From Luteolibacter luteus (GTDB lineage Bacteria; Verrucomicrobiota; Verrucomicrobiia; Verrucomicrobiales; Akkermansiaceae), in assembly GCF_012913485.1 (NCBI RefSeq), contig NZ_CP051774.1, forward strand, positions 372,001 through 436,000: 64,000 nucleotides of DNA. The letters run 5' to 3'. The position numbers and the translations under genes are program-made. Each line of letters starts with the position of its first letter. The stretch's first letter is position 1. The notes beneath the pieces are model-generated. The model was not told the DNA's origin and searched no databases. It was given only the letters and a program-made list of their open reading frames with translations. Positions 10,857 to 12,092 of this stretch are shown piece by piece.

Positions 10857-10947
10857 GGATCGGTGGCTGAGTGGTCGAAAGCACACCTTTGCTAAAGGTG
10901 CGTACCTCACAAGGGTACCGAGGGTTCGAATCCCTCCCGGTCCGCCA
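10857..10947 (+). tRNA. tRNA-Ser (anticodon GCT)
   Basis: A 91-nt class II tRNA. Acceptor GGATCGG pairs with CCGGTCC (one T-G pair), followed by discriminator G and an encoded CCA at 10945-10947. The D arm has GGTGGCTGAGTGG. The anticodon stem-loop CACCT-TTGCTAA-AGGTG gives GCT, reading AGC/AGU. The long variable arm has a GTACC/GGTAC stem, as expected for serine. The T arm is GAGGG-TTCGAAT-CCCTC. The 3' end is repeated in the tail elements that follow. Confidence 0.97.
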
Positions 10948-11125
10948 GCGTGTTTCACGCTGGATCTCCCCAAAAACAACAGAGGAGAATCACGCTCGTG
11001 TGTCCCCTAACAAGGCGGACCGGAAGGGATGAGAAGCTTGCGCGGAGCGCCGGGTTTGAATGCGGCGGGAGCAATCGCGACCACCCTACCGCGGCGCAGC
11101 CGCTGACTGGCATGGCCCGGAGGGC
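10929..11125 (+). repeat. tRNA-Ser tail repeat, copy 1
   Basis: A 197-bp unit beginning with the last 19 nt of tRNA-Ser. Next comes a perfect hairpin (CCAGCGTG-TTT-CACGCTGG) overlapping the CCA, and then at 11014-11030 a 17-nt sequence that is the reverse complement of the tRNA 3' end with one mismatch. The distal part contains a GCGGC-GCA-GCCGC palindrome near 11091-11103 and a short frame beginning ATG at 11029. Copy 2 follows directly. Confidence 0.85.
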
Positions 11126-11320
11126 AATCCCTCCCGGTCCGCCAGCGTGTTTCACGCTGGATCTCCCCAAAAACAGCAGAGGAGAATCACGCTCGTGTGT
11201 CCCTAACAAGGCGGACCGGAAGGGATGAGGACCTTGCGCAAAGCGCCGGGTTTCCATGCCGCGGACTCTCTCGCCACCCTACCGCGGCGGAGCCGCACAC
11301 TTGCATGGCACGCGGGGTCA
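11126..11320 (+). repeat. tRNA-Ser tail repeat, copy 2
   Basis: The second tandem unit, offset by 197 bp from copy 1. It starts with an exact copy of the last 19 nt of tRNA-Ser (11126-11144) without the rest of the tRNA. The next ~100 bp match copy 1 except for one substitution and one indel; the distal half is more diverged but keeps the GCGGC-GGA-GCCGC palindrome (~11284-11296). The right boundary is approximate. The inverted 17-nt partner is at 11210-11226. Confidence 0.8.
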
Positions 11321-11375
11321 TCCCCTTCGGATTCCGCTCGCTTTTCTACAGTTGAGGTGGCGCCCTCCTCCGTGA

Positions 11376-12092
11376 ATGGGCCAATACACTTCTCTTTATC
11401 TCGCCGAGCAAACGGACGAATCTCCGAGTGCCCGGAAGCTGTGGCTCTACGAGAGCAAGTACTACGTGGGGCTGCTTTGGCTGGCCTGTTTCCGCACGGA
11501 CGACATCGGGGGTACCGAGAGCACCAGTTGCCTGTCCTGCGAGGTGGGCAAGGCCCGCAGGCAATTTGAGGAAGGAATCGCGATTCTCAGAAAAACCTTC
11601 CCAGCTACCAATTTCGATGGCCCCACCCCGGGCTGGGATGGAGCTGATGGCGAGTCCGTCAAGGTGAACAACCCCGGCCGGGTAATGCCGGAGAAGTTGC
11701 GGGATGAAAGCTATGTGGATCGTTTCCGTCGAATCCTCCGAGCAGAGGGCTGGAACCGCCTGCTTTTGAATTATGGAGAATTGGGAATATACGGCGATGA
11801 CTACGATTCCCTGATCGAGCGAGCATTGAAAGGATTCGATGCTCCGGAGCAGTGGTTCCCGTATGAGAAAAGGATGAACTCCATCCTGAAAGCCAAGTCC
11901 CCCGAGTCCGGGGCAATGAGCTGGTGCTACGTCTTGAGAACGCTGTGTGGTCGGGCAGCCCATTCCGGGGTGAACAACATGAGCATCTCACCGAACTCTT
12001 CCGCTCTACTCCCGGAAGCGTGGACGAGAAGCCGATGCTGCTCGGCTATTACGCAGGCATTTGTCTCGGCTAACGAAAGACCGCCATCTTGA
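11376..12092 (+). CDS. Hypothetical protein, probably frameshifted near the 3' end
   Basis: The 238-aa frame starts MGQYTSLYLAEQ and reads as an ordinary soluble protein (FRRILRAEGWNRLLLNYGELG) up to about residue 178. After that the translation becomes Ser/Cys/Arg-rich and looks out of frame. The alternative frame from ~11900 gives a natural sequence (NELVLRLENAVWSGSP, then LTELFRSTPGS and MLLGYYAGICLG) ending at a TAA at 12071-12073. Adding one C to the C5 run at 11899-11903 joins the two. It is therefore either a recent frameshift mutation or a base-call error. The intact product would be about 232 aa. No known family is recognised. Confidence 0.65.
   Translation: MGQYTSLYLAEQTDESPSARKLWLYESKYYVGLLWLACFRTDDIGGTESTSCLSCEVGKARRQFEEGIAILRKTFPATNFDGPTPGWDGADGESVKVNNPGRVMPEKLRDESYVDRFRRILRAEGWNRLLLNYGELGIYGDDYDSLIERALKGFDAPEQWFPYEKRMNSILKAKSPESGAMSWCYVLRTLCGRAAHSGVNNMSISPNSSALLPEAWTRSRCCSAITQAFVSANERPPS

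Follow-up and report, generated by a model that had tools for sequence, protein, structure and literature searches.

A probable array of RtT-like RNA elements behind a tRNA-Ser gene of Luteolibacter luteus, with host-matched relatives behind tRNA and tmRNA genes of other bacteria

Introduction

Behind a tRNA-Ser(GCT) gene of the verrucomicrobium Luteolibacter luteus lies a tail of two tandem repeats that carry both copies of the tRNA 3' end and sequences complementary to it. What kind of element is this tail, and how does it come to match the tRNA that it follows? The window analysed here is a stretch of 64,000 nucleotides (contig NZ_CP051774.1, positions 372,001 to 436,000, forward strand), and a first-pass annotation made from its letters had likened the layout to the tyrT locus of Escherichia coli. 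The RtT RNA of that locus is stable, about 171 nt long, and released from the tRNA transcript. In the literature that we searched, RtT appears only as an RNA of E. coli and Pasteurellaceae with a loosely defined role, and a general description of tRNA-tail repeats was not found.

Results

Organisation of the tail

The features of the locus, all on the forward strand, are listed below.

10857..10947, +: tRNA-Ser(GCT), the host RNA (ARAGORN; Rfam RF00005, 57.3 bits)
10929..10947, +: 3'-terminal 19 nt of the tRNA (positions 58-76), which recur as a copy in the tail (direct repeat D2, 99% identical)
10945..10963, +: perfect 8-bp hairpin CCAGCGTG-TTT-CACGCTGG, overlapping the CCA (from the sequence)
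11014..11144, +: predicted structured element of unit 1 (136-position model R1, 115.5 bits, unit 1 itself being among the 14 units in R1; shuffle z -4.1)
11014..11030, +: antisense of unit 1, complementary to the tRNA 3' end at 16 of 17 nt (inverted repeats I2/I4; own-host test)
11031..11060, +: unit 1 core, GAGAA - variable hairpin - GGGTTTGAA, with helix P2 and a T-arm-like 5' half (consensus fold; GAAC/GGTT pairs in alignments A1 and A2)
11061..11125, +: unit 1 variable module, helices P3-P5 with GNA triloops, ending in C before AAT (consensus fold; P5 covariation; triloop count)
11126..11144, +: host 3' end as copied in unit 1, with the CCA; the second repeat begins here as well (direct repeat; 19 of 20 identical)
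11210..11339, +: unit 2, decayed (R1, 48.8 bits)
11210..11226, +: antisense of unit 2, with the same sequence as in unit 1 (inverted repeats)

The repeat comparison bore out the first-pass description of two tandem units that each open with the last 19 nt of the tRNA. The units are about 196 nt long with a spacing of 196-197; one pair of direct repeats (10929-11006 and 11126-11203) is 99% identical at a spacing of 197, and a second (11005-11100 and 11201-11296) is 78% identical without gaps. The 17-nt antisense GGCGGACCGGAAGGGAT, which has one mismatch to the tRNA 3' end, was verified at both proposed sites, 11014-11030 and 11210-11226. The perfect hairpin across the CCA was likewise seen twice, recurring at 11142-11160; a T run after the hairpin at 10945-10963 is absent, and a terminator scan gave none. 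The closing 3' copy of unit 2 (about 11320-11339) has decayed beyond recognition. A Pfam scan of six neighbouring ORFs in the window identified a laccase-type oxidase, a MarR regulator, an HU-type protein and a family 32 glycosidase, with no evident functional link between the tail and these genes.

Recurrence within the genus, and variants of the tail

The repeat was found again in related genomes, both behind tRNA-Ser and behind other tRNAs. A DNA search of 57 relatives gave matches in 13 genomes, every one of them of the window's genus. Most matches follow a tRNA gene, the hosts being Ser (four anticodons), Pro, Asp and Leu tRNAs. At these loci the unit usually closes with a copy of the end of its own tRNA, mostly at 17-19 of 20 nt, and most units contain an antisense to their own tRNA. 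A covariance model, R1, built from 14 genus units without E. coli sequence, detected the element in 16 of the 18 genomes of the genus, in 0 to 12 copies per genome and, in most cases, 35-75 nt downstream of a tRNA gene (Ser, Pro, Asp, Leu, Lys, Val); one R1 match (L071) looks like chance. The window's own genome contains a second intact tail, behind tRNA-Pro(CGG) (L037).

Several variants were also seen. An apparently decayed tail stands behind tRNA-Ser(GGA) of the window's own genome (L002). At three loci the interior module (model positions 50-117) occurs alone, with no adjacent tRNA found (L059 1501-1569, L168 668-730 and L169 640-706), and at two others it is doubled within one unit (L013 1535-1671, L025 323-465).

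The predicted fold and its strand

None of 200 dinucleotide shuffles of unit 1 folds as well as the unit itself (z -4.1). The complement of unit 1 also folds beyond its shuffles, and folding energy alone therefore does not decide the strand. Alignment A2 comprises 75 distinct units from the genus and close relatives; it was fitted to the model and so favours structure, a bias limited by slid-partner controls and by alignment A1. In the consensus structure over these units 90% of cells are paired, and 17 of the 26 pairs have two-sided changes, amounting to 188 cells against at most 41 in the slid-partner controls.

Two counts distinguish the strands. Helix P2 contains 70 G-U pairs against a single A-C, and sense-strand GNA triloops number 78 against 6 of the complementary kind, the corresponding figures for the flanks being 14 and 22. 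Because the G-U bias is so one-sided and the GNA loops cluster on the sense strand, these counts show the sense strand to be the one predicted to fold, in the direction of the tRNA transcript. In helix P1, which contains the antisense, G-U pairs are not in excess (33 against 44 A-C in alignment A2), and for this reason copying, rather than selection, might account for part of the match of P1 to the host.

Relation to RtT/RttR of E. coli

The proposed likeness to the E. coli locus held in both directions. In a relaxed Rfam scan the units matched the RtT family RF00391 across the entire model but under its cut-off (best 28.8 bits), the window scoring 18.2 bits over the full length against a gathering cut-off of 45. 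Conversely, R1 matched each of the three K-12 tyrTV (RttR) units at 26-28 bits. A search with RF00391 through 388 genomes of the window's phylum gave matches in 13 genomes, which represent 12 genera; one Verrucomicrobiota tail reached 54.1 bits, the sole genome above the cut-off. Of the 12 loci fetched, 11 had a tRNA (Ser, Tyr, Arg, Pro or Gln) just upstream on the same strand, and the 3' copies, where checked, were mostly 18 of 18. Among 14 control genomes E. coli alone gave a match. The RttR sequence is present in 4696 of 5426 E. coli genomes, and its annotated 3' end falls exactly on the CCA of the tRNA-end copy.

The two loci share tandem units of similar length that lie on the same strand, directly 3' of the tRNA, and each carry about 19 nt of the tRNA end. 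In both, an antisense to the own tRNA (GGGGAAGGAT in E. coli) runs into an ATGAGAA...GGTTCGA core and GNA-type hairpins. The RtT core, antisense followed by GATGAGAA ... GGTTCGA ... AATCC, reads GATGAGAA ... GGGTTTGAA in the window, one base off in the second half, which we counted as the same core. A tandem G-A motif has been described for RtT (PMC7657543); in the sequence between P1 and P2 of nearly all our units GA stands opposite GA(A). The differences are a distinct interior with P3-P5 modules in the window, a range of hosts in the genus (Ser, Pro, Asp, Leu, Lys and Val tRNAs) and a window score under the Rfam cut-off. Because of that score (18.2 against 45 bits) we do not place the window in RF00391. 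However, since every other testable feature except the peptide frame is alike and relatives bridge the gap, the window tail is, judged by its sequence, a divergent variant of the RtT tRNA-tail RNA outside the curated family.

The antisense follows its own host

The first-pass annotation had suggested looking for compensatory changes in the 17-nt pairing, and the antisense does covary with its own tRNA. We compared antisense pairing with the own host and with hosts dealt randomly, bearing in mind that the loci are related and their counts, here and at base 59, not independent. In the genus, pairing at positions 64-65 was 81% with the own host and 55% with swapped hosts (0 of 5000 deals as good), and at acceptor positions 66-68 it was 87% and 58% (0 of 5000). 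Far taxa behaved similarly, with 80% against 68% at positions 64-65 (0 of 5000) and 60% against 45% at positions 66-68 (1 of 5000). For the loci found with the RtT model together with E. coli, which include tRNA-Tyr and tRNA-Arg hosts with a differing T-stem, the figures were 88% and 73% (0 of 10000). The own-host signal weakens past position 68. A full mimic of an RNase P substrate, with a 12-bp acceptor/T stack, was also considered as a role for the pairing; this idea is weakened, the pairing fading at that point.

Base 59 is informative as to the source of the match. The antisense base is C in 6 of 7 cases with a host G59 and in 2 of 22 with A59 (p 0.0004, for loci that are related to each other), while the unit's own copy is always A59, even with a host G59. 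Since the copy within the unit keeps A59, the antisense appears to follow the tRNA itself at this base. A chance repeat is ruled out by the own-host test, by recurrence behind other tRNA genes and by the shuffle folding.

Occurrence in other phyla

We scanned one genome per species, 85,000 species in all, for the exact pattern GGGATGAGAACC-N(4-34)-GGGTTCGAA. Of the 57 stretches found, 40 had a same-strand tRNA or tmRNA at most 700 nt upstream; the pattern includes the T-arm consensus and so favours hosts with a CCC T-stem, but the RtT-model search, which is free of the pattern, gave the same picture. The first units of these 40 lie nearly all 27-116 nt from the host gene, and 28 of them carry a copy of the host end that agrees at 15 or more of 18 nt. 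The stretches come from Verrucomicrobiota, Bacteroidota (Cecembia, Algoriphagus, Sphingobacterium, Parapedobacter and others), Chlorobi, Proteobacteria and one Gastranaerophilales genome; two (L202 and L203) look like chance. Outside the genus the exact pattern is rare, with 6 of 396 Bacteroidota and Chlorobi genomes and 1 of 369 in another set.

In Sphingobacterium, tmRNA is the host of the same kind of tail (L115, L088, L107, L133, L137), with four tandem units of 130 nt behind the tmRNA at L115 400-950. In many Bacteroidota the unit sits beyond an apparent strong intrinsic terminator, and because this precedes them the units may be seldom transcribed.

Discussion

We consider it likely that the window tail is a tandem array of RtT-like tRNA-tail RNA elements. 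The order of the unit is constant: antisense to the host (about positions 59-68), GAGAACC - hairpin - GGGTTTGAA, variable module, CAAT, and the copy of the host 3' end (60-76). This architecture is found together with host tailoring, a sense-strand fold, recurrence in several phyla and a match with RtT/RttR in both directions. Transcription past the tRNA would yield a unit RNA that would fold and be trimmed at its CCA end, as in E. coli RttR, leaving a small RNA some 130-195 nt long. The number of copies could change when the repeated 3' ends recombine. As to its role, the tail might act as a processed RNA, as a switch on the tRNA or as a selfish tail, and its target might be the own tRNA or lie elsewhere.

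A different view is that the tail is selfish, mobile or driven by conversion, spreading among tRNA genes and adopting the 3' end of each target while being useless to the host. We regard this as possible, though on balance unlikely. Ser, Arg and Pro tRNAs and tmRNA are favourite targets of integration, which counts towards it, as do the patchy distribution across phyla and the range of 0 to 12 copies per genome. Interiors within a genome are also more alike than expected, tails at different tRNAs being 96% alike in one genome (G016) and 91% in another (G013). On the other hand, orthologous tails persist at one tRNA in several genomes (Pro-TGG, 0.89; Ser-GCT, 0.94; Asp), and the unit has no transposase or integrase of its own. 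Plasmid and phage records were searched and the element was not found; a virus-borne element was rejected, three viral pattern matches looking like chance, with neither a tRNA nor a 3' copy. Interiors are alike both at the same tRNA across genomes and at different tRNAs within a genome, and the effect of genome on their similarity (0.061; 0 of 2000 permutations) exceeds that of isotype (0.024; 3 of 2000). The tails therefore combine descent at orthologous tRNA genes with copying or conversion from one tail to another.

The tail might instead act as a switch on the tRNA. The antisense would take the 3' strand of the tRNA and the 5' acceptor strand would pair with the copy, so that read-through transcripts with the swapped 3' end would be held back or discarded. 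An alternative pairing of the acceptor/T strand with the tail had been proposed in the first-pass annotation, and equilibrium folds do favour it: the antisense pairs with the tRNA 3' strand at a mean of 0.73 in the genus, 0.79 elsewhere and 0.99 in E. coli, the acceptor 5' strand pairs with the copy at 0.77, and the swapped fold is on average 11 kcal/mol better than tRNA and unit folded separately. The choice of C opposite a host G59 (6 of 7, against 2 of 22 with A59) despite the A59 of the unit copy points the same way, although these cases are related to each other. However, a weaker swap remains in controls with shuffled linker and interior (acceptor-copy 0.73, antisense-tRNA 0.43, -6.7 kcal/mol), which qualifies that part of the proposal, and in the window itself (L052) the acceptor 5' strand pairs with the copy at 0.01, giving only the first half of the swap. 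A tRNA folds fast, whereas equilibrium folds ignore kinetics and tertiary contacts. We think such a switch doubtful.

A decayed integration site, in which the 3' copies would be att duplications that integrative elements had left behind, we consider improbable. The copies begin in the T loop, a usual crossover region and the point from which tRNA attachment sites of integrative elements duplicate the tRNA 3' end, and some tails lie at the far side of apparent inserted elements where the tRNA is partial or lost (L089, L063, L164, L170, L053). Unlike attachment sites, however, the tails have a conserved folded interior, with the GATGAGAA...GGTTCGA core common to several phyla and E. coli, an antisense tailored to the host and units of about 100-200 nt without an integrase; tails behind inserted elements look like bystanders, and the Pfam scan of six neighbouring window ORFs gave no integrase. 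The first-pass suggestion of a plain decayed att duplication is thus opposed by structure that is conserved across phyla.

Some loci without an intact tRNA deserve mention in their own right. Their tails share near-identical and foreign-looking upstream sequence that ends in a tRNA-like 3' end, in three sets (L053, L054, L055, L149; L043, L026, L159; L047, L166), as if integrative elements might have inserted between the tRNA and the tail. Elsewhere the 3' half of a tRNA stands alone before the tail, like one side of an integration (L089 1260-1300; also L063, L164 and L170).

A small basic peptide like tpr is, finally, an explanation to which we give almost no credence: an ATG within a GGATGAG motif opens a frame reading MRS in both E. 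coli and the window, but in the genus the length of the frame from that ATG ranges from 7 to more than 100 codons, and in E. coli the frame is broken in copies 2 and 3, which refutes a conserved peptide. The LPRRSR ending attributed to both window frames also fails, because the frame from 11029 (25 aa) ends there and that from 11225 reads through it as a 114-aa ORF (11225-11569).

Returning to the reading of the tail as an RtT-like array, RtT of E. coli would be one case of a far wider feature, found with many tRNA types and tmRNA in Verrucomicrobiota, Bacteroidota, Chlorobi and Proteobacteria. Tentatively, and with less conviction than for the window itself, we suggest that such tails could form a widespread, unrecognised and host-tailored class that sits on any RNA with a T-arm and acceptor (tRNA or tmRNA), adopts both sense and antisense sequence of its host, spreads between hosts within a genome and acts through a swapped 3'-end fold; in this full form the proposal is rather unlikely. 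The host-fitted copies supply many natural variants with which the action of RtT could be tested, and they raise the question of how an element follows the sequence of whichever tRNA precedes it.

Two other Rfam families touch on these loci. The model of sX4 (RF02223), a proteobacterial sRNA, passes from a tRNA-like stretch into GGGGGGUGAGA and gave 49.4 bits on the tRNA-Ser and tail start of an Oceanospirillales locus (L120 3608-3763), under its own cut-off of 70 and with the rest of the unit missing from the model; sX4 may be the same kind of RNA as the tail, which we note as a lead only. RF04351 (Plastid-psbl-rps4) scores up to 57.9 bits on the opposite, antisense strand of tRNA-Ser genes (L007, L019, L006 and L066-L069), and may be a reverse-complemented tRNA.
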